A DNA stretch of 64,000 nt from NCBI GenBank assembly GCA_964036195.1, contig OZ038453.1:27151998-27215997 (forward strand). The letters are read 5' to 3'. Made by a program: the position numbers and the translations under genes. This DNA is from Sphaerolaimus hirsutus. Its lineage: Eukaryota; Nematoda; Chromadorea; Monhysterida; Sphaerolaimidae. Each line of letters starts with the position of its first letter. Within the stretch, counting starts at the first letter, position 1. Positions 3,198 through 50,230 of the stretch are shown here, one piece after another. The notes beneath the pieces were generated by a model, which did no database searches, was not told where the DNA came from, and worked only from the letters and a program-made list of their open reading frames with translations.

Positions 3198-3564
3198 GAC
3201 CCAACAAAAAATTTTTTTTTCCAAAAGTGAATAATTGACGTGTATGGGTTGTTTGCATGTTAATTAGGTGAATTATCACCAAATTAGCATGCACGAAATT
3301 GTTTTGAGACGGTTACACACGCTGATGCATTTTCTTTGGGGGAGTATAAATTTTTTTAAATTTGTCTGAATTTTGGCATGTGAGTACTCCTTCATTTAGT
3401 GAGTACGCATGCCAAATTTCAGCTCAGCGCTGTTACCGGTTGTTATTTTTTTCATACTTCAATTTTTTTTGATCATAGGATCATTTTTGTATAGTGATCG
3501 AAATCCTGCCAGGGACCGGTCCCCGGCAACGTCGAAATGGCCCCGACCGGGGTCAAATGTCCTC
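3198..3564. repeat. Left arm of a foldback element (family of 4686-5612)
   Basis: Matches the left arm of 4686-5612: same order of GTGTATGGGTTGTTTGCATG, ATTAGGTGAATTATCACC, CTTTGGGGGAGT, and the GGACCGGTCCCCGGC block followed by GTCGAAATGGCCCCGACC. The right arm is absent; the copy ends where the 3565-3690 repeat begins. Confidence 0.75.
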
Positions 3565-3690
3565 GGAATTTTCGGTGTCACAAGCAGTAGTACCTATGTT
3601 TACCTAGTAAAAAGTGTCACAAAGTCAAATTTTGGCCAATGTGATTGTGAATGTCACAAGCACAAATTGGGACCTTGCACAGCCTATGTT
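3565..3690. repeat. Dispersed repeat, second copy at 46917-47040
   Basis: About 120 bp nearly identical to 46917-47040, including GTGTCACAAGCA, CATGTTTACCTAGTAAAAAG-like and GACCTTGC blocks. It is rich in TGTGAATGTCACAAGC, a short palindromic word. At the other locus the segment sits between GGCG-rich inverted ends, so this is probably a truncated copy of a small palindromic element. Confidence 0.75.
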
Positions 3691-6880: not shown

Positions 6881-7683
6881 CTATTCTTCATTGGATCCAA
6901 TTAGGAGTAGATTGCTGCCAGAAGTATTGACCACCTTAAAAGGACCATCAAATTTTGGAGAATTTTTATCCATTGAAAAACGCTTGACCATGACATAATC
7001 TCCAGCAGAAATTTCAACATGATGTTTTCTGTCAAAGTATTGTTTGTATAGGGAACGATTTTTGTCGCTTTGTGTTCTGGCAGCTGCAAAAAACAGGTTC
7101 CAATGGGGTAAATGTCCAAATACCAAATAAAAAGGACAACACCCCGTCATTCGGTTCATCGCTAGATTGTAACGCAAAGTGGCAAAGGGAAGTAAATCAT
7201 GCCAAGTTTGTTGTGGAAAGTCTAAAATACTCAAATTTAGTAAACTTCTGAGTTCGCGATTGGCCCTTTCAACAAGACCGTTCGCCACTGGATTGTGTGG
7301 CAAGACAGGTGCATGAGTAACTCCGAAATTTTCACATAAAGCATGCATCTCTGAGTTGACAAATTCCCTACCTCGATCAGTAACGAGAACACATGGAGCG
7401 CCAAGCAACATGAAAATGTATTTGTAAATTGTCTTGGAAATGGTGGTAGCATTCAAAGATGGCACTGCGCAGGTAACCAAATACCGAGTGAAAGCATCGA
7501 TAGCAACTAGAATTTGAAATTTCGATTTGAAGTCAAAATGCAAAATGTCCATGTGAAAAACTTAAAAAGGTTGTGTTGGAGTTTCGATATTGCCTAGCGG
7601 TGCAGCATTAATTCGATGCGGTTTGCATTGCATGCATTCTGAGCATGAGCTGCAAAATTTCAGAATATCCGCCTTCATAGTGG
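6881..7683 (-). pseudogene. Gypsy pol, integrase part (left of the BEL insertion)
   Basis: Minus-strand frame with the retroviral-type integrase core: AIDAFTRY (first Asp), TDRGREF (second Asp) and NGLVERANRELR (Glu), then a C-terminal GDYVMVKRF/GPFKV block. Upstream, 7565-7683 encodes the CSSCSECMQC half of the HHCC zinc finger; its His half lies beyond the BEL element near 19.95-20.0 kb. A stop at 7562-7564 and a frame change separate zinc finger and core, so this copy is inactive as read. Confidence 0.8.
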
Positions 7684-8782
7684 TGTAAAATAATACGGAA
7701 CTTGTTGAAGTGACTTGTGAACTAGCTCCTATTCCTAGCTGAGGAAGAGGACAAATGTGAACGTATGAAAGTTGACGTGAAGCGTCGTCTCTAGTTGACG
7801 TTCCGTTATTTTATCAAATGTGATTAGTTGAGTTGAAGTGAATTGACGTGAGTTAGTGTGAAGCAAATTTAGATTGTTTACAAAAGATTTTGACGAACGT
7901 TTTTATTTAGACAATTAAATACAAAGAAATAAGTGTAAATAAAATATATATAAAATTATACGTAAACAAGGGAATTAATTTACAACTAAATTAATTACTT
8001 AATTAAAACGTAAAAGAAGCTCTAATTACCGGAGAAATAAGGCAATTAAAAGAAGGCACTTAATTACGACAAAAGGCGACAATTAAGTGGCGCGGTTGTG
8101 AGAAAAGGCACCTTAAACAGCGCAGGTGTGAATAAAGCACTGAGGTGACTTAAAGCACCAAGAGTTAAACTTAGCACCAAAAACAAGCGACTTAATAAAG
8201 TGACAACGGCGCTTATTTAGATCCTAGGAAGAGATTCGTGGGAAGTTGACGAGGTTGCAAACACTGCCGATTTTAGCTGTGAAATCGGCTTTTAAGGGCC
8301 AGACCGATGGCGATTGACTTGGCGCCAATCGGTCGGCTCTAATCTCTGATTTTTACCCAACATTTCCAATTGTGAAAGTTCAATCCTTGCCCGCTCGCTT
8401 CTCCGATGAAAAGCGAGCTAAACTGGCAAGATAGTGAAAATGTGAGACAAGCCAGACAGCATTTGAAATGGCGTGCGGGCCCGGCCCCCCACTCGGGTCG
8501 AGCCCGGCGCTTAACATAAACATGACGGCGTATTTGCGTGCTGCTTGTCAAGGAAATGTGGCGGAATGTGAGCAATGACTAAGATCTAAATATGTGAGCG
8601 ATGTAAAGCGCACGTTGTAAACAACGTCGCTTGAGATATTAAATAACGAATGTGAAGATGTTAAGAAATGGAATGTCAATAAAAATGGAATCTTGATAAG
8701 TTGAATTAATTAAATATAAAAGCGAACATAAAGACGTTAACTTAAATATTAAAGGTTTTACATTTTACGATAATGTTACACA
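7684..8782 (-). repeat. BEL 3' LTR
   Basis: 1,099 bp, a duplicate of 18843-19941 with scattered substitutions (near 7874, 8236-8241, 8286, 8346, 8473, 8514-8522, 8640, 8681). A 78-codon minus frame (8339-8575) occurs in both LTRs but is conserved only because LTRs are duplicated. Rich in TGTGA words on the plus strand, like the rest of the element. Confidence 0.93.
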
Positions 8783-39331: not shown

Positions 39332-40143
39332 ATTTTAAGGTTTTGAATTTTGTCAAAAAGACGCTGGTTGGCGAGCTTTTATCGCCTGGTCGAAAAGTTC
39401 AACGGAAGTTTTTTGTGGATTTTTAGTGATTTTACCGTGTGACCAGCACCTCGCGCCGGTTTAAGCGTTTACCAGCTTAAATCGTGTCTGAGTTTTTTTG
39501 TGTATCCAAAAGTTGTGTTTTTGTGAAAAAGATAATTTTTCACGTTCCTCGACTACTATAGAAGTCAAGTAGGTACCCTATGCACAATTCTCTATAACCG
39601 CAGACACTAATGTCTGCACCCAAATTACCTCAACGCCGGTGGCGTAGCGGCGCGGCTTCTTGGCAGACGGCGCACCCGAGTCGTCGGTTGCCGGCGGCAC
39701 GAATTTTGCAGACTTTTTCGGGATGCGACCCAACGAACTGCCTCGCTGCGGTGGAGCCATGCTGGAGAATGAGCTAAGTCTCGGGGCCAAGCGTTGTCGA
39801 ATGAATTTTTTTGGGTTTTGCTGTGGCTTTTATATCCCTGTGACTGCTCAAGATAATCGTTTTTTGTTTTCCCATTGCAGCGCGCAAGATGGCGGCTTCC
39901 CTTTGATCGTGGTGGATTATCTAGCCGTGTCCGCTCAGCAGAGCTCGACGTTCGTTTTGGCACGTGGTTAGTTCTTTGTTGCGTGTGCACTTATTGCAAT
40001 CAATGTGTGCCATCGGGTGGATTAAGTCGTTGGATAGTTTTGTCGAAATTTTATTAGCGATACCGGGTGGTCTGTTTTTGTTATCTTGGGGGGATTTTAT
40101 GTGTGTTGATTTGCGTGTGTGATTAAGTGTGGGCCCCCAGACA
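39332..40143 (-). repeat. Penelope-like pLTR, downstream copy
   Basis: Near-identical to 45837-46638 apart from one patch in exon 1 (10 bp longer here). Contains a TATA box on the minus strand (plus 39827-39834) and, in this copy, an intact 44-codon exon 1 (39629-39760: ATG at 39760, donor GAG|GTAATT). Confidence 0.88.
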
Positions 40144-40159
40144 ACCGGTATTCCCTAAT

Positions 40160-43081
40160 TTATACGGATTTTTTAATGGTGTCTATCCATTTGCAAATGT
40201 CCGCGGATTTACACATTCCGTGTTTTGTGGGTAAATTCGGGTAATTTATGCATAGTTTTAAAAGGGTTGTACACATTTTGTCAATGTTAAATTCCATAGA
40301 ATGAAGATTCCTCATCATATCAAGTATCCTTCGGGAGCTGTCTGATAAGTTCGTGCACACTTCCATGTATCTCTTGCTTTGAGAATACAGTGTGTTGTAA
40401 CCAAGTTCTGGGGGGACGTTGCTGGAAACGTGCGTGTTTTTTACTATACTGAATTTGTAATCGTCTGTTTTATTCCACAGGTTGAATAGTGGCCAGTTGT
40501 TCTGCACCGATACGTCCAGGTCTAGGAAGTGTACCTTGCTGCCGCCCTCGTTTTTGTCTGGTTCAAGGGTTAGTTCGGTTCCGTAGATGTCTTGTGAGAT
40601 GGTTAAAAAGTCTGGCTTGTTTATTACGAGTATATCATCTACGTATCTCTTTGTGCGGTGTAGGGTTCTGGCCTTTATATTGTTTTCTTTGTTTCCCAAA
40701 TATCTGTATTCCATGCCAGCAAGCGTTAGATTCGCAATGTCGCTGGAGGCACTGCCTCCCATTGGAATGCCTAGCGTTTGCTGGTATATGAATCCGCAGA
40801 ATTTGATGTGTGTGTTTTTTAGTACCATGTCTAGTAGGTTTTCTGCGTTTGGTACAGATAATATTTTTCCTGGCTTGTTTGAAGAGTTCTGTGTTGCTCC
40901 AGATTTCGTAATTCGAAAGCAACCGTTTTTTATGATGAGGTCCATGAGGAAGTTTATGTTTGTTTTGATTAGGTGGTGTGGTAGCGTGGTGAACATGTTG
41001 GCGAAGTCGTAGGTGTGTATGCTATTGATTTTGTGTTGTTTTTCTAGCGTTTTTGCGACTTCTATACTGTTTTTGCACAGCCAATATCTATTTGTGCCGT
41101 TGCGTTTAGAAATTACTTTACAGTATGTTTCTAGTCTCGTAGTGAGATATTGCAGTATTTTGTGTAAGTCCCATGCGAGACTGTTGATGTTGGAGCATTT
41201 GCTACCAGCTATGTATCTGAATTTTATGGGGTTCTTGTGGAATTTGGGCGTGGCGTATATGATAGGGAAAGTTTCACTGAATCGGTCCATTTCCCCGTCG
41301 TGATTTTTTGTTTCCTGTAATAGTTTTTTAGATATCCCCTCGCCGTGTGTATTTGTATGTCCGATGTATTTGTATGTTTCATTTCCACTTTTTTCGAATA
41401 TACCGTCTTTAACCCCGAGTTCTTTTGCAATGATTTGTATGTAATATTTTTTGCAGATGAACGCGTAGGTGGCAGCTGCTTTGTCGATAGGGGTGATTAC
41501 ATACTTTTCTTGCAGTTTTGTCAGGGCTCTGGTAATTTTTTCTTTGTCATAATTAGCTGTTTTATTCGTGCACCCGTATTTGATCCGTCTAGTAATGAGA
41601 TTAGATGCTTTGTTGTGCCAGATGTTGATTTTTTCTGAGTCTGATGTGTGTTTTGACATAAGATATGATTTTATTTCATTTAGTATGCCCTGGCTTTTCG
41701 TTAGTGTTGATTTTTTACACGGAGGGTTTGGTATTCTGTAGTTAGCTCCGTAGCTTAGTATTTGTGCTAAGTCTTTGTCTTCGCATATTTTTAAGTCGCC
41801 TGTTATGACATGGCCATGATGTGAGTCTATGAAGCTACTGTTAACGCAATCACATGCTTTATTTTGAATGTATTTGTATTCTTCCAATTCTAGATTTTTT
41901 AGAACTTTATTGTAGTTAAATGCTGTGACGCCGAAAGGTGTTTCATATTTGGTCGAAATTAATATTTCGCTTAGTGTAGATTTCAATTCCGGAGGCAAAT
42001 GTGAGGTAGTACTCTGGCTTTTCAGTGTTTTTGTTAACCCATTTATACCATCGGTCGGGTTGGAGTATTGGTATACGAATATTTTCGGGTGTTTGGGTTT
42101 TGTTGGTTTGTACACGGCTTTCTGCCTTTTAGCGCAGAGTAGGGCTGTGTACTTGTTGTATGTGTTCCAGTTTATGTTTTTTGCATTTAGTTGTTTCAGA
42201 ACCTCATTGATTGCCGTTTCCGTATTTTTTGTTTTCTGTTTGAGGCATTTTTGTAAAATTTGGTAATTTGTGTCGTTGTTGGACGGTTCAATCCCGTTAG
42301 GTGTCTGTTTTTTACGTAGTGTTTTTTTCTTTCTTTGTCCAATTCTAGGTAGTGAAAAGTTGAGGAAGGGTAGTCGTGAGTGTTTGTTGGTGATGTCTAT
42401 TTCAGTTATGTTCCCCAGACCTTTAATAATGCTGTTACCTCCCATTGGGTATGCAGTCGTCAATGCATTTATGTATTGCATTTCAGACTCAGCGAATAGT
42501 TGTGGTTTATGTGTTCCTATGTCGGCGTCGGCGATTTTTTCCAGTATATCCAGTGTTATTGATGACGGGTCACATTTATTTGTATAGAAGTGTCGGTAGA
42601 AGTGGGTGTCTACCCTATGTATGCCTTTTCTCGAGTTTTTAATGTGCCCCATGTGTTGTGCAAAACGTGTTTTAATTTTTTGCTTAGTTTCCCCCACATA
42701 TTGCATTTTGCAGCAGCCACAAGTCATAAGGTAAATGACGTTGTTTGTGGTGCAGCTTAGGTTTTCATGGTGTATGAATTTAGCTCCAGTGGTGGTGGAG
42801 CAGTAGTATCGATCCTTGCTGAGATGTGTGCAGGTCGTGCACCTGTGCGACTTGCACTTAGTGTGTACTGCACCTTGCGTTATTTCGACTTTTTCAACGG
42901 TCAGGTCATTGCGTGTTTGCAATTTCCAAGCGTTTTCACTCGACCTGGTAGCCCTTAGAAGGGCTGTTGGATTAATGTGTAGTAATTTTGGCACGTGTGC
43001 AACATTCATGCGTCGCTGGGTGGCATCGGTTGCCCCGGATGCGGTAGCATGAGTCGAGTTGCTTGTAGTGCTAAAATTCAT
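40160..43081 (-). CDS. Penelope-like ORF: GIY-YIG nuclease + reverse transcriptase
   Basis: 973 residues from ATG 43081, uninterrupted. A Cys cluster (C76, C81, C84, C94) precedes the GIY-YIG nuclease: VIYLMTC (115-121), QYVGET (127-132), R139 and H143, E198/E200, and PMGGNS near 212-217. After a ~300-residue linker the RT follows: TPIDKAA, YATPKFHKNP, YDFANMFTTLPHH, LGIPMGGSASS and catalytic YVDD (813-816), then HFLDLDV and a basic C-terminus. Canonical Penelope has the nuclease after the RT; here it is before. The element would nick DNA with the nuclease and prime reverse transcription there. The absence of internal stops suggests a recently active copy. Confidence 0.9.
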   Translation of the reverse strand: MNFSTTSNSTHATASGATDATQRRMNVAHVPKLLHINPTALLRATRSSENAWKLQTRNDLTVEKVEITQGAVHTKCKSHRCTTCTHLSKDRYYCSTTTGAKFIHHENLSCTTNNVIYLMTCGCCKMQYVGETKQKIKTRFAQHMGHIKNSRKGIHRVDTHFYRHFYTNKCDPSSITLDILEKIADADIGTHKPQLFAESEMQYINALTTAYPMGGNSIIKGLGNITEIDITNKHSRLPFLNFSLPRIGQRKKKTLRKKQTPNGIEPSNNDTNYQILQKCLKQKTKNTETAINEVLKQLNAKNINWNTYNKYTALLCAKRQKAVYKPTKPKHPKIFVYQYSNPTDGINGLTKTLKSQSTTSHLPPELKSTLSEILISTKYETPFGVTAFNYNKVLKNLELEEYKYIQNKACDCVNSSFIDSHHGHVITGDLKICEDKDLAQILSYGANYRIPNPPCKKSTLTKSQGILNEIKSYLMSKHTSDSEKINIWHNKASNLITRRIKYGCTNKTANYDKEKITRALTKLQEKYVITPIDKAAATYAFICKKYYIQIIAKELGVKDGIFEKSGNETYKYIGHTNTHGEGISKKLLQETKNHDGEMDRFSETFPIIYATPKFHKNPIKFRYIAGSKCSNINSLAWDLHKILQYLTTRLETYCKVISKRNGTNRYWLCKNSIEVAKTLEKQHKINSIHTYDFANMFTTLPHHLIKTNINFLMDLIIKNGCFRITKSGATQNSSNKPGKILSVPNAENLLDMVLKNTHIKFCGFIYQQTLGIPMGGSASSDIANLTLAGMEYRYLGNKENNIKARTLHRTKRYVDDILVINKPDFLTISQDIYGTELTLEPDKNEGGSKVHFLDLDVSVQNNWPLFNLWNKTDDYKFSIVKNTHVSSNVPPELGYNTLYSQSKRYMEVCTNLSDSSRRILDMMRNLHSMEFNIDKMCTTLLKLCINYPNLPTKHGMCKSADICKWIDTIKKSV

Positions 43082-43297
43082 ATTGGTTGTGGTTTGGGTT
43101 TTTTTTCGTTTTCATGCAGAAAACTTTAATCGACCTGAATTTGTTTTATTTGTGTCTGTTTTTGTCAACAGGTGCATGAAAGTGGTGCAGAAAGTTTGGG
43201 TGGCCCGTGGTCAGTCGGGCGTGTTCACCATTGTGTCGAAAAGTGCTATGAATTTGATCGATGTTATTAGAAAAAATGCAAAAAGCGCGTGATGGTT

Positions 43298-43327
43298 TGG
43301 TGACTGGCCGGGTTTCGAACCCGCGGT
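43298..43327 (-). other. tRNA T-arm-like sequence ending in CCA
   Basis: The minus strand reads CGGGTTCGAAACCCG, a perfect T-stem/loop and B-box match, then GCCAGTCACCA, like an acceptor 3' half with CCA. No matching 5' half (GACTGGC) was found, so this is not a complete tRNA gene. Confidence 0.45.
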
Positions 43328-43594
43328 TGTCGCGTGGGAAAAAAGTCTTGCGACATTGGTGGAGATGCGACGTAGGGTTTCGTGTGTTGTTTTTTGAGTG
43401 TTTTGCTGTTTTATGTGTATTAGTTGACTTGATGTGTTGATTGTGAGAAAGTGGAAAAAATCCTGGCGAACTGGAAAAAGTCAGCTCAGCCTGATTTTTA
43501 TATCACTGAAGAGCCACTATCTAAAAAACCCTTTCAAAAGACCCTATTCCAGCTTGTAAGAATTTTTTTGGTCATCATCGCCGACTCAAAATTA
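43328..43594. other. Penelope-like spacer, nothing else recognised
   Basis: Non-coding part of the spacer between the two tRNA-like motifs. It holds a TGTCGC/GCGACA hairpin next to the T-arm-like sequence. Confidence 0.4.
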
Positions 43595-43640
43595 GGAAGC
43601 TCCCCCACCCCGTAGCGCTAACCACTACGCCATAGCTTCC
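43595..43640 (-). other. tRNA-like mini-cloverleaf with A box
   Basis: On the minus strand GGAAGCT and AGCTTCC pair as a perfect 7-bp acceptor-like stem around TGGCGTAGTGGTTAGCGC, a full A-box/D-arm match. Only 46 nt, so anticodon and T arms are absent. Could act as an RNA polymerase III promoter element or primer-like structure in the Penelope-like spacer, or be a chance or SINE-derived remnant. Confidence 0.4.
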
Positions 43641-44465
43641 ACGCTTATCTTTTGTTTTAAGTGAAAAATGTATCGATAATCGAGTGTGTGGCTTAGCGTG
43701 CGGTTCGCGGTGTAATGCCTTATCAGTACCTCGCGATTAGGGTTTTCGTGTGTTTACATTGGTGTCGCGTTGAATTTGCGTGTCCCTGGGCTTAGTGTTG
43801 TACAGTGTAACTAGCAGAGATGACTATTATTAGATGTTTTTAGGCCGAAAAAGTGTTTTGGATAGAAATAGGCATTTTTTTGCTGGGGTTTTTTTTGTGC
43901 GATTTGCAGGGTGTGCGAGATGGATAGAGGAGTGTGTTTTGTTTCATGTGTTATTTGTGAGAGGTAAATTGAAGTCTAGATGATTGCTATTTTGTTTGTT
44001 TTTTTCGATTTATTGGGCGGTAAGGGTAAACAGTTTAGTATGAAAAAAAGACCCAGTGTAAGTATATTACAGTTAAAAATAGGGCGTGTGTGACACGACA
44101 GAATTAACAAGTTGTGAGTAGACAAATTACCAGTAGACGATAGGCCAGCGTAAAAAATGCAAGTAAAAAAATGTGCCAGTAAGCTACCACGATTCAATTA
44201 GTCACGAAAAAAGCGGGATTATCACTTAGTCGTTTTGTAGGTACCCGACCTCGGCGTGTCGGGCGCGTTGGTGGCGCGGCGCTTGCTTTTGTGTCGCCCG
44301 CGGACGGTTTGCCAGTTGCCGTTAGAGGTGCCAGGGGGATCTGGTGGGTGGGGGGGTTGGTGTGGTTAGGTCTGCCGGACTTTGCATGTTTGCAGGGTTC
44401 GGCATAAGAGCATATTAAGATCCACCTTGAACTTAGTCCAAAAGCTAAAAGCGGCCTGGGTCAAG
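43641..44465. other. Penelope-like spacer between ORF1 and ORF2
   Basis: Non-coding spacer, except that 44366-44686 holds a second minus-strand frame which continues the Pro/Asn-rich composition of ORF1 exon 3 in another frame and may be its true end after a frame break near 44680. Confidence 0.5.
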
Positions 44466-45062
44466 TCACCTTGGCTTTGGCTGGCGCCGCGTCTCGGGTC
44501 GCGGTGGTTGTTGTCGGGTGCAGTGGCTTGCGGTACGCTCGGCGGGGGGTTCGCGGTGGGGTTCGGGTTGGGGCGCGAGTCTGGGATGGCCATGTTGACC
44601 GATCGCTGGCGCAGCAGAGCATTTTTCTTCTGCATGGCTTTCGGATCCGCCTGAGTGGGTTTGTGGGTGTATGATGATGCGTACATCGGGGAGATCGATG
44701 ATACGTAACATCTTTAAGACAAGCTTATCCCGATTGTGACGGACCTTGGCCTTGATTCGGCCATCGGCGATTAGGTCGGCGTATTTCAATTCGAATTCGC
44801 CCGCGTAGAGAACTTCTAGCGGTTTTGAGTCGCGGGGCGCGTCTATGGGCGCCGAGCCAATTTTGGGCCCGTTTAGCATGAAAAATCGGTGGGAATCGCT
44901 CGAAAGGGTAGCAAAAAAGGCCAGACTTTTACAGCTGGATTCTTCCGCGAGTTCCGTTTTTGTTTTGTCTTTTTGAAGTTGGATTTTACCGTCCCCCACG
45001 TTTCTCAACCGAGGGGCGTTTGCAAGCAGCAACTCGGCTGCCGTGCAGGTGGCAAATTTGGT
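44466..45062 (-). CDS. Penelope-like ORF1, exon 3 (function unknown)
   Basis: Starts after acceptor CCCCTCGCAG in phase 0, matching exon 2. Reads TKFATCTAAELLLANAPRLR, KSLAFFATLSSDSHRFFML, EFELKYADLIADGRIKAKVR and LKMLRIIDLPDVRIIIH: well-formed globular composition with no recognised domain. The end turns Pro/His/Arg-rich to a stop at 44466; the alternative frame ending at 44366 looks equally protein-like, so the natural C-terminus is uncertain. Confidence 0.6.
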   Translation of the reverse strand, partial: TKFATCTAAELLLANAPRLRNVGDGKIQLQKDKTKTELAEESSCKSLAFFATLSSDSHRFFMLNGPKIGSAPIDAPRDSKPLEVLYAGEFELKYADLIADGRIKAKVRHNRDKLVLKMLRIIDLPDVRIIIHPQTHSGGSESHAEEKCSAAPAIGQHGHPRLAPQPEPHREPPAERTASHCTRQQPPRPETRRQPKPR

Positions 45063-45259
45063 CTGCGAGGGGGGAGAAGGAAGGTATTTATGTTTTGTGT
45101 CAAAAAAAAGAGGGGGGTCAAAATGAGGTAGTAGCTGAACATGGAAAAGAAGTTGCGTGAAGCATGGAAAAAAGTTTGCGTAGATCTTTTTTGCGTCTAT
45201 TTGCACTAAAAACATATTTTTTGGCATATACCCAACCCCACATGCCCCGTTTTACATAC

Positions 45260-45490
45260 CACCATGGCGGTGCCGCGGAAGTCGATGGTGTCGAGTTCGC
45301 GTACGCATTGGTGGTCGCCGCCCAGCCCCATGCTGCCCGACATTAGGTTCCGAACAATGGATTTGATGTCTTGTTTGCTGTTGGTGCGGGGGTCGATGCC
45401 ATGATGTTTCCAGATGACGTTGTAGCGGTTGATTTCTCTTGCGAGAAGTTTGATGGCGGCGGCATTGGACTCGGGGGTGGGGGCCTCGGG
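45260..45490 (-). CDS. Penelope-like ORF1, exon 2
   Basis: Between acceptor CCCCCCTCGTAG and donor GTG|GTATGT; 231 nt, phase 0 at both ends. Encodes 77 residues: PEAPTPESNAAAIKLLAREI, NRYNVIWKHHGIDPRTNSKQ, SIVRNLMSGSMGLGGDHQCV and ELDTIDFRGTAMV. The intron to exon 3 is 197 bp. Open frame, consensus sites and phase match on both sides support genuine splicing. Confidence 0.65.
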
Positions 45491-46133
45491 CTACGAGGGG
45501 GGTGAGTGGGATATGTGTGTGAGAATTTGCAAATAGGTGCATGTGTAAATACAAAATTGTGTACAAATCCTACATGATCTCTATAGCTGGCAGGGACCAA
45601 ATCGCGGTGTGCCAACTTTTTCTAGAGATAGGGGTGGTTTTCTGTTGGTGCCCAAACCACTGATAAACCCGACTGGCGAATAACAGTGTGAAGGCCGACC
45701 TGCTAGGTACCACGCAGTCATTCGCTACGTGAGTACTGTCGCAGGATTTGTATGAGGATTTTGTAAGTCAGAAGCGTGACACACGCTGTATATGCAGTGC
45801 CGGAAGCACTAGCGACTGCACATTGACAACGGAATCATTTTAAGGTTTTGAATTTTGTCAAAAAGACGCTGGTTGGCGAGCTTTTATCGCCTGGTCGAAA
45901 AGTTCAACGGAAGTTTTTTGTGGATTTTTAGTGATTTTACCGTGTGACCAGCACCTCGCGCCGGTTTAAGCGTTTACCAGCTTAAATCGTGTCTGAGTTT
46001 TTTTGTGTATCCAAAAGTTGTGTTTTTGTGAAAAAGATAATTTTTCACGTTCCTCGACTACTATAGAAGTCAAGTAGGTACCCTATGCACAATTCTCTAT
46101 AACCGCAGACACTAATGTCTGCACCCAAATTAC

Positions 46134-46255
46134 CTCAACGCCGGTGGCGTAGCGGCGCGGCTTCTTGGCAGACGGCGCACCCGAAACAGGGGCACGAATT
46201 TTGCAGACTTTTTCGGGATGCGACCCAACGAACTGCCTCGCTGCGGTGGAGCCAT
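46134..46255 (-). pseudogene. Penelope-like ORF1 exon 1, frame-shifted copy
   Basis: ATG at 46255 (MAPPQRGSSLGRIPKKSAKF), donor GAG|GTAATT at 46134. In the downstream repeat the same exon is 132 nt (44 codons, phase 0, with a basic KKPRR motif near its end). Here it is 122 nt because of a 10-bp loss, so it does not join exon 2 in frame. Confidence 0.55.
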
Positions 46256-46321
46256 GCTGGAGAATGAGCTAAGTCTCGGGGCCAAGCGTTGTCGAATGAA
46301 TTTTTTTGGGTTTTGCTGTGG

Positions 46322-46329
46322 CTTTTATA
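46322..46329 (-). promoter_or_regulatory. TATA box of the Penelope-like pLTR
   Basis: Minus strand TATAAAAG, about 70 bp upstream of the exon-1 ATG at 46255; identical in the other repeat at 39827-39834. A position typical of an RNA polymerase II core promoter. Confidence 0.6.
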
Positions 46330-46638
46330 TCCCTGTGACTGCTCAAGATAATCGTTTTTTGTTTTCCCATTGCAGCGCGCAAGATGGCGGCTTCCCTTTG
46401 ATCGTGGTGGATTATCTAGCCGTGTCCGCTCAGCAGAGCTCGACGTTCGTTTTGGCACGTGGTTAGTTCTTTGTTGCGTGTGCACTTATTGCAATCAATG
46501 TGTGCCATCGGGTGGATTAAGTCGTTGGATAGTTTTGTCGAAATTTTATTAGCGATACCGGGTGGTCTGTTTTTGTTATCTTGGGGGGATTTTATGTGTG
46601 TTGATTTGCGTGTGTGATTAAGTGTGGGCCCCCAGACA

Positions 46639-46863: not shown

Positions 46864-47045
46864 GGCGCCAGGCATAGGCGGCGTAAGTGCTTGTGCGCTT
46901 GTGAATGTCACAAGCGGAATTTTCAGTGTCACAAGCAGAAATACCCATGTTTACCTAGTAAAAAGTGTCACAAGGTCAAATTTTGGCCAATGTGATTGTG
47001 AATGTCACAAGCACAAATTGGGACCTTGCGCCGCCTATGGCGCCA
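46864..47045. repeat. Palindromic element with GTCACAAGC words
   Basis: Ends GGCGCCAGGCATAGGCGGCG and CGCCGCCTATGGCGCC are inverted; the interior (46917-47036) is the repeat also present at 3565-3690. A run of further GGCGCC words follows to about 47130. Confidence 0.6.
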
Positions 47046-49355: not shown

Positions 49356-49735
49356 AATATCTCACTCCATTCCCGAGATACAGGGACACCGATTCTTGAA
49401 AAAATTAAAAAAATCATCCGAATGTCGGTATGTCCACCCTGAAATTGATGAAATTTCACTCGAATCTCGGTATGTCCAATAAAAGCCAACATTTATTTCA
49501 CTCGAAACTTGGTATCTCCACTGCCAGAAATCTATTTCCGAATTACGGTATAGAATTGCACGGATTTGTCTAAAACCCAATACAAAATTGGAAAAATCAT
49601 CCGAATTACGGTATAGAAATCTGAACGTGTTTTTTGAAAAAATCACTCAAAACTCGTTATCTCCAAAAAAACTTTTTCCGAATGTCGGTATCTCCAAAAA
49701 ATCTATGTCCGAATGTCGGTATGTCCACTCATAGA
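49356..49735. repeat. Degenerate tandem repeat, TCGGTATGTCCA words
   Basis: At least seven units share CCGAATGTCGGTATGTCCA or variants (CGAATCTCGGTATGTCCA, CGAAACTTGGTATCTCCA, CCGAATTACGGTATAGAA), spaced roughly 25-60 bp. A further short piece lies at 53112-53165 on the other side of the composite palindrome. Confidence 0.65.
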
Positions 49736-49774
49736 TTTACTCTCAGATGACACCATTTTCATAGGGTGGCTTCT

Positions 49775-50230
49775 TATGGAGTGGCGCCATGGGCATGGAA
49801 ACGGCGCCATTTTTATTGAGTGGCGCCATGGATATGGAAACGGCGCCATTTTTATGGAGTGGCGCCATGGACTAGGGAATGGCGCCATTTTTATGGAGTG
49901 GCACCATGAACTAGGAAACGGCGCCATTTTTATGGAGTGGCGCCATGTACTAGGAAATGGCGCCATTTTTATTGAGTGGTGCCATGGATATGGAAACGGC
50001 GCCATTTTTATGGAGTGGCGCCATGGACTAGGGAATGGCGCCATTTTTATTTAGTGGCGCCATGGACTCGGAAATGGCGCCATTTTTATTGAGTGGCGCC
50101 ATGGACTCGGAAATGGCACCATTTTTATGGAGTGGCGCCATGGACTCGGAAACGGCACCATTTTTATGGAGTGGCGCCATGGACTCGGAAATGGCGCCAT
50201 TTTTATGGAGTGGTGCCATGGACTCCAAAA
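49775..50230. repeat. 39-bp minisatellite, left arm
   Basis: Unit around TGGCGCCATGGACTCGGAAA + TGGCGCCATTTTTATGGAG. Because 39 is a multiple of 3, units translate as 13-residue repeats in several frames (e.g. MEWRHGLGNGAIF), producing spurious ORFs. Confidence 0.9.

Follow-up and report, generated by a model that had tools for sequence, protein, structure and literature searches.

How introns survive RNA-based copying in Penelope-like elements is an open question; introns do occur in these elements, and it has been proposed that the template is antisense or unspliced (PMC3846280). According to a 2019 review, elements that bear an endonuclease have one ORF, and those with two ORFs are without the endonuclease (PMC6431247). 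Endonuclease-bearing elements with additional coding parts are nevertheless already known, because Neptune-like canonical elements of fish and molluscs encode esterases according to a 2017 paper (PMC5408684). A Poseidon element begins copying within its own RNA, and target-primed copying has been carried out in vitro for an Anolis element (both PMC11167929). The BARE LTR retrotransposon produces a spliced subgenomic RNA for Gag and keeps a separate RNA pool for copying (PMC3735527).

Here we describe a Penelope-like element with an intron-bearing upstream ORF (ORF1) in a 64,000-nucleotide stretch of DNA from the nematode Sphaerolaimus hirsutus (the window). The original prediction, made from the window alone, had proposed an ORF1 of three exons and two introns that begins in the direct repeat of the element.

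Organization and class assignment of the element

The whole element occupies 39332–46638 on the minus strand in the order pLTR, ORF1, ORF2, pLTR, as delimited by its direct repeats, its ORFs and copies in the same genome. The 5′ pLTR (45837–46638, minus strand) contains the promoter, exon 1 of ORF1 and the start of intron 1, and is 98.3% identical to 39332–40143, the 3′ pLTR on the same strand, in which repeat comparison located an open copy of exon 1 (39629–39760). In addition to these direct repeats of the window element, tandem units were found in copies L013 and L014. Of the 17 copies with a placed exon 1 start, 16 have a TATA[AT]A motif 73–92 nt 5′ of the ATG; the single miss is L009, which is without a 5′ exon 1. 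In the window copy the distance is 74 nt, matching the TATA box proposed ∼70 bp upstream of the ATG. Both this box and exon 1 lie within the pLTR, and ORF1 thus begins in the direct repeat as had been suggested.

ORF2 (40160–43081, minus strand), identified from the ORF list and by protein alignment, spans 983 codons from stop to stop and is read as an N-terminal GIY-YIG followed by a reverse transcriptase (RT). Pfam gave no hit for the window ORF2, and against a model of group II intron RTs it reached E 9.8e-6, which is below that model's cut-off. In the protein database five proteins aligned with it at 24–29% identity, covering 62–90% of its length. One of these RT relatives, P0002, matches RVT_1 at 569–782 (20.4 of 29.6 bits) and GIY-YIG at residues 73–166 (19.0 of 22.6 bits), both below the Pfam cut-off. 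The ORF2 motif VIYLMTC..C.MQYVGET precedes the RT and is aligned to P0002, which places GIY-YIG N-terminal to the RT. GIY-YIG before the RT is the permuted order that Craig et al. in 2021 are said to have reported for the Naiad/Chlamys group. ORF2 is assigned provisionally to the Penelope-like RTs, on the basis of the pLTRs and the GIY-YIG. Rfam detected no hammerhead ribozyme in the pLTR at the gathering score in the window, and relaxed thresholds returned weak, unrelated matches only; a hammerhead, reported for several Penelope-like elements, is not known to be a requirement for every member.

A conserved hairpin lies between ORF1 and ORF2 (43640–43300 in the window, minus strand), with the sequence GGAAGCT...AGCTTCC, or GGAACT...AGTTCC in L017–L021. 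It surrounds a tRNA D-arm-like stretch, GCGTAGTGGTTAGCGC, and in the window a T-arm-like GGGTTCGAAACCC follows ∼300 nt past that stretch, being less clear in some copies; ARAGORN called no tRNA. Just 5′ of the element a 125-bp stretch (46915–47039) is 94% identical to 3564–3688 in the window. Repeated IKMAPFPSPWRHS-like units are present within an open frame at 49703–50050 on the minus strand.

Exon–intron structure of ORF1

For comparison of copies the 348 Mb genome, including the window, was searched, and 20 stretches were fetched and compared together with the window. Read from these alignments, ORF1 is almost certainly a gene of five exons and four spliceosomal introns that belongs to the element. 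Exon 1 (46134–46255, minus strand, as for all ORF1 features below) encodes a basic segment that looks NLS-like by eye. It had been placed correctly, and repeat comparison confirmed that the 5′ exon 1 of the window copy is frameshifted relative to the open downstream copy. Its donor, GAG/GT (the slash marks the junction), occurs in 27 of 28 exon 1 matches that reach the junction, counting both pLTR copies; the lone miss is the 3′ copy of L020. Intron 1 (45491–46133), which carries a conserved RNA fold, is followed by exon 2 (45260–45490, 77 codons), flanked by AG on its 5′ side and GT on its 3′ side in all 18 copies that hold it, the window included. Intron 2 (45063–45259 by copy comparison) varies from 197 to 339 nt in the 17 copies measured, and no loss of it was seen among the copies read. 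The acceptor AG of exon 3 is present in all 20 copies that hold the exon 3 start, L015 being truncated there. The four predicted junctions GAG/GTAATT, TAG/CCC, GTG/GTATGT and CAG/ACC, in phase 0 throughout, were confirmed at their proposed positions, as were exon 2 and the exon 3 start at 45062.

Downstream of this point the model had to be revised. The two exons and the exon 3 start of the original prediction stood, and its count of three exons and two introns gave way to five and four. Its end of ORF1 at 44466 proved wrong, since a frame arrives at that stop only if a 94-nt intron (44744–44651) is left in place and exon 4 is entered in a different frame; the true end is at 44222, in exon 5. 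Exon 3 (44745–45062), the conserved core, comprises 106 codons, and after the last of these AAG/GT (44744) is found in 17/17 aligned copies. At the other end of this intron 3 (44651–44744) a pyrimidine-rich AG at 44652 is likewise present in 17/17 aligned copies, and the conserved frame DPKAMQKK... of exon 4 (44470–44650, placed by copy alignment and pN/pS) then begins. In the window this frame is out of frame with exon 3; the two frames coincide in L010–L014, L025, L027 and L028. In each of the four distant copies L029–L032 the exon 3 homology stops 1–3 codons from the 44744 donor, and the next exon follows in another frame behind an AG. A candidate intron 3 donor at 44684 (GAT/GT) was rejected, as it is absent in L018, L020 and L021 and is only 34 nt from the acceptor.

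Exon 4 ends with the donor CAAG/GTGACT (44469) in phase 1, which matches the phase of exon 5. Intron 4 (44341–44469, phase 1) contains a second donor at 44425 that is kept in 17/17 copies. Copy alignment and pN/pS place exon 5 at 44222–44340, encoding the basic C-terminus WQTVRGR.KSKRRA... and ending with the stop TGA at 44224–44222. Introns 1–4 of ORF1 were present in the copies read. When 20 copies were spliced in silico 14 could be assembled; for L009, L016, L019, L023, L026 and L028 one part was absent or escaped the script. Of these 14, 11 have a spliced frame that reads without interruption into the conserved C-terminus, and one of the 11 (L012) has a GTG start in its 5′ copy. The broken frames are those of the window copy (in exon 1) and of L021 and L022 (in exon 4). 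Splicing of exon 1 onto ORF2 was also considered and rejected: inspection of the window by eye revealed that the stretch from the last in-frame stop to the ATG of ORF2 contains no AG.

Conservation of ORF1 and the predicted protein

A genome search with 44466–46255 gave at least 90 matches (40 of 112 candidates scored). At least 22 stand-alone matches start at query positions 736–764 and end at 966–1014, where predicted exon 2 corresponds to 766–996, and most third-block matches start at 1174–1191, close to the exon 3 start at 1194. Matches limited in this way to exons indicate that the exon prediction goes beyond chance. We then computed pN/pS over ten representative copies for each predicted frame. 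Values in frame were 0.29 for exon 2, 0.21 for exon 3 and 0.27 for exon 5; exon 4 gave 0.15 in its first 30 nt and 0.57 in its last 27 nt, and the other frames gave 1.07 or more. The ORF1 exons are under purifying selection. Chance open frames are ruled out by these ratios and by the exon-limited matches.

It had been asked at the outset whether other copies might lack the exons or carry stops in them, or whether the exons might belong to an unrelated host gene. The exons are present and mostly stop-free, and they accompany the element in most copies. Exon 3 matches 36 places in the genome (36 of 36 candidates scored), 35 of them stop-free, and for at least 31 of the 36 the 3′ flank contains an RT match within 6 kb, at 1.5–3 kb downstream; five are without an RT match among the matches listed. 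In the reciprocal direction, with 47 of 508 RT candidates scored, 26 of the listed RT matches exceed 2.8 kb and 22 of these have exon 3 upstream. Upstream stretches were fetched for the other four: L034–L036 look 5′-truncated, and L033 has the RT and no ORF1 within 3 kb upstream. A foreign pLTR lies upstream of the truncated-looking copy L035. Because exon 3 places go with the RT and RT matches go with exon 3, ORF1 is, as judged from these sequence matches, a core gene of the element and not a passenger.

The linkage of ORF1 and RT spans copies from 100% to about 52% RT identity. The distant copies L029–L032, whose RT identity is 52–54%, do not represent four independent families, L030 and L031 being near-identical. 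Exons 2–4 were seen in all four, with exon 2 partial in L032; exon 1 is clear in L030 and L031 only, and the last block with WQTV was found in L029 only. With the closest copy set aside, identity to the window is 75–92% for exon 3 and mostly 60–68% for the RT, and by this comparison the exon 3 core is more conserved than the RT. We consider it likely from these patterns that a permuted Penelope-like family possesses in ORF1 a true second gene, and that this gene predates the split of the families in this genome.

A captured host gene that kept its introns and now sits between the pLTRs of a few copies would fit the introns and the absence of retroelement domains, and has a precedent in a rotifer, from which an NRPS gene between Pen3a repeats is reported (PMC3846280). 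We regard such a capture as very improbable here, given that ORF1 lies upstream of 22 of the 26 listed RT matches above 2.8 kb and is present in copies at about 52% RT identity, and that exon 1 is encoded within the pLTR itself. The linkage to the RT and the spread over families disfavour a recent capture in particular; an ancient one, before the families split, is possible.

The spliced ORF1 protein (ORF1p) would have 316–339 residues, a pI of 9.7–10.1 and a basic C-terminus. In Pfam it has no domain above cut-off, RRM and zinc knuckle included, in agreement with the earlier failure to recognize one; matches below cut-off were to NAM-associated (E 0.073) and to a phage ssDNA-binding protein (E 0.17). 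The best match of an exon 3 profile to the PDB reached only E 0.27, and both AlphaFold models of ORF1 were unusable, with mean pLDDT values of 39 and 34. A protein database search, which reaches relatives sharing short words, returned no relatives of exon 3, and viral contigs contained none of exon 3 and none of the RT. As these searches gave no domain above cut-off, no usable fold and no relative, the role of ORF1p is a guess. Its charge and position tentatively suggest, as the likeliest role, a basic protein resembling a nucleocapsid or RNA chaperone, a reading that may well be wrong.

Within the predicted introns, two stretches carry a coding-like signal. Intron 3 gives a pN/pS of 0.27 in the nearer families over its first 75 nt (44744–44670), and a value of 0.28 was obtained for 45 nt that start at the donor of exon 4 (44470–44426), this second stretch ending at the 44425 donor that is conserved in 17/17 copies. 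A constitutive intron would not account for such a signal, and the behaviour of intron 3 therefore counts against our model. Perhaps both stretches reflect alternative splicing or intron retention that gives rise to isoforms. ORF1p might then be a regulator or host-interaction protein that steers splicing or export of the element RNA or counters silencing. Retention of intron 3 and use of the donor at 44425, both of them conserved alternatives, would fit this role by suggesting isoforms, as would the nuclear-looking basic N-terminus. We nonetheless think it rather unlikely, as the core is conserved beyond the RT, which is less usual in host-interaction proteins.

Conserved RNA fold, proposed mechanism and known systems

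Covariation identified a conserved and probably pseudoknotted RNA fold of 127 nt at 45863–45989 (minus strand), in the part of intron 1 that lies in the pLTR, with a second, 3′-terminal copy at 39358–39484. Another hairpin of intron 1 (45784–45835, minus strand), just inside the pLTR end and outside the direct repeat, also shows double changes. No Rfam family matches the intron 1/pLTR fold. A covariance model built from an alignment of twelve copies matched 25 of 29 sources, among them L029, L030 and L031 with values of 1e-12 to 1e-14; it found no fold in L032–L035. In 20 distinct rows 96.5% of the cells pair, 9 of the 22 pairs change on both sides and the covariation score was reached by 0 of 500 shuffles, in an alignment that was fitted to the covariance model and so leans towards it. 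When MAFFT was used for the alignment, 4 of the 22 pairs had changes on both sides, a number reached by 238 of 500 shuffles; paired cells, double-change cells and covariation score were each reached by 0 of 500. Most double changes in the MAFFT alignment set one group (D) apart from the rest and may represent few events.

Base pairing is possible between the first hairpin's loop and the end of the block, which gives a candidate pseudoknot. Its two sides appear to co-change in L030 and L031, as judged by eye with a hand-placed gap, and the 20-row counts contain no double change in this helix. In L021 the fold is tandemly duplicated in both pLTRs (7622–7847 and 911–1136). A weaker match (E about 1e-5) at 165–281 of L036 lies on the plus strand, opposite to the nearby RT, and may belong to a further pLTR or to another family.

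We propose that the element probably yields ORF1p from spliced RNA and copies itself from unspliced RNA, since the four introns are kept in the copies examined. Transcription would start from the pLTR. The spliced RNA would be translated into ORF1p, which with its basic ends and conserved middle could serve as a nucleocapsid- or RNA-chaperone-like partner of the ORF2 protein (ORF2p), and the unspliced RNA would both encode ORF2p and act as the copying template. ORF2p, with or without ORF1p, may grip the 3′-terminal fold, target-primed copying beginning just beyond it, and if the RNA so copied is unspliced the introns are copied along.

The introns might instead be kept because the template is an antisense or never-spliced RNA, with no selection of unspliced sense RNA through an intronic signal. 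Arkhipova et al. 2013 argue that the intron retention of Penelope is compatible with antisense templates (PMC3846280), and the 3′ fold stays on spliced RNA as well, so that the fold alone would not exclude spliced templates. Covariation does not decide the strand, because complements pair too. The 3′ end of the element, on the other hand, lies 20–34 nt downstream of the fold in the sense orientation in 13 of 15 copies, the exceptions being L013, a tandem unit, and L021 with its doubled fold, and on this evidence an antisense or never-spliced template seems to us a less probable explanation.

Copying from unspliced sense RNA could also be tied more closely to the fold. The pLTR fold might cleave itself or grip the RT, as a kind of RNA not described before that takes the place of the hammerhead of other Penelope-like elements, its 5′ copy in intron 1 letting splicing sort transcripts into those that make ORF1p (spliced) and those that are copied (unspliced, with the full signal). 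This idea is doubtful; if true, transcript sorting through an intronic fold would explain why introns are kept in these retroelements. The family offers a conserved gene with a predicted spliced structure and four introns, together with a fold of which one copy lies in intron 1 and the other is 3′-terminal. It also provides testable handles in the form of predicted junctions, an assayable protein and a compact RNA.

The element shares pLTRs, tandem units and introns with canonical Penelope/Poseidon elements (PMC3846280, PMC11167929). Those are described as having one ORF with a C-terminal GIY-YIG and, in several cases, a hammerhead, whereas the window element has two ORFs, the permuted order and another fold. 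Athena/Terminon elements of rotifers resemble it in having ORFs besides the RT and a 3′-terminal RNA fold, in their case a hammerhead, but are described as telomeric and without an RT-fused endonuclease (PMC6431247), in contrast to the GIY-YIG-bearing window element. Neptune-like elements similarly possess an additional coding part, reported as a GDSL-type esterase, while no Pfam domain was found in the window ORF1. The original view of ORF1 as a non-standard part accordingly agrees with the 2019 review, with the qualification that some Penelope-like elements are known to have additional ORFs. BARE, in which splicing has been shown (PMC3735527), is an unrelated element and offers an analogy only, splicing being predicted in the window element.

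Among the titles found in the literature, whose scope did not extend to Craig et al. 2021, none reports a spliced ORF1 in a permuted element, and we claim no priority. LINE ORF1p is a nucleocapsid-like RNA chaperone. Like the window ORF1 it is a basic protein encoded by an upstream ORF; no sequence relation between the two was found, and LINE ORF1 is not known to contain introns. The Naiad/Chlamys group has in common with the window element a GIY-YIG N-terminal to the RT in one ORF, as well as pLTRs. To the extra ORFs reported for Penelope-like elements, the present family would add a multi-intron ORF1 without known domains.
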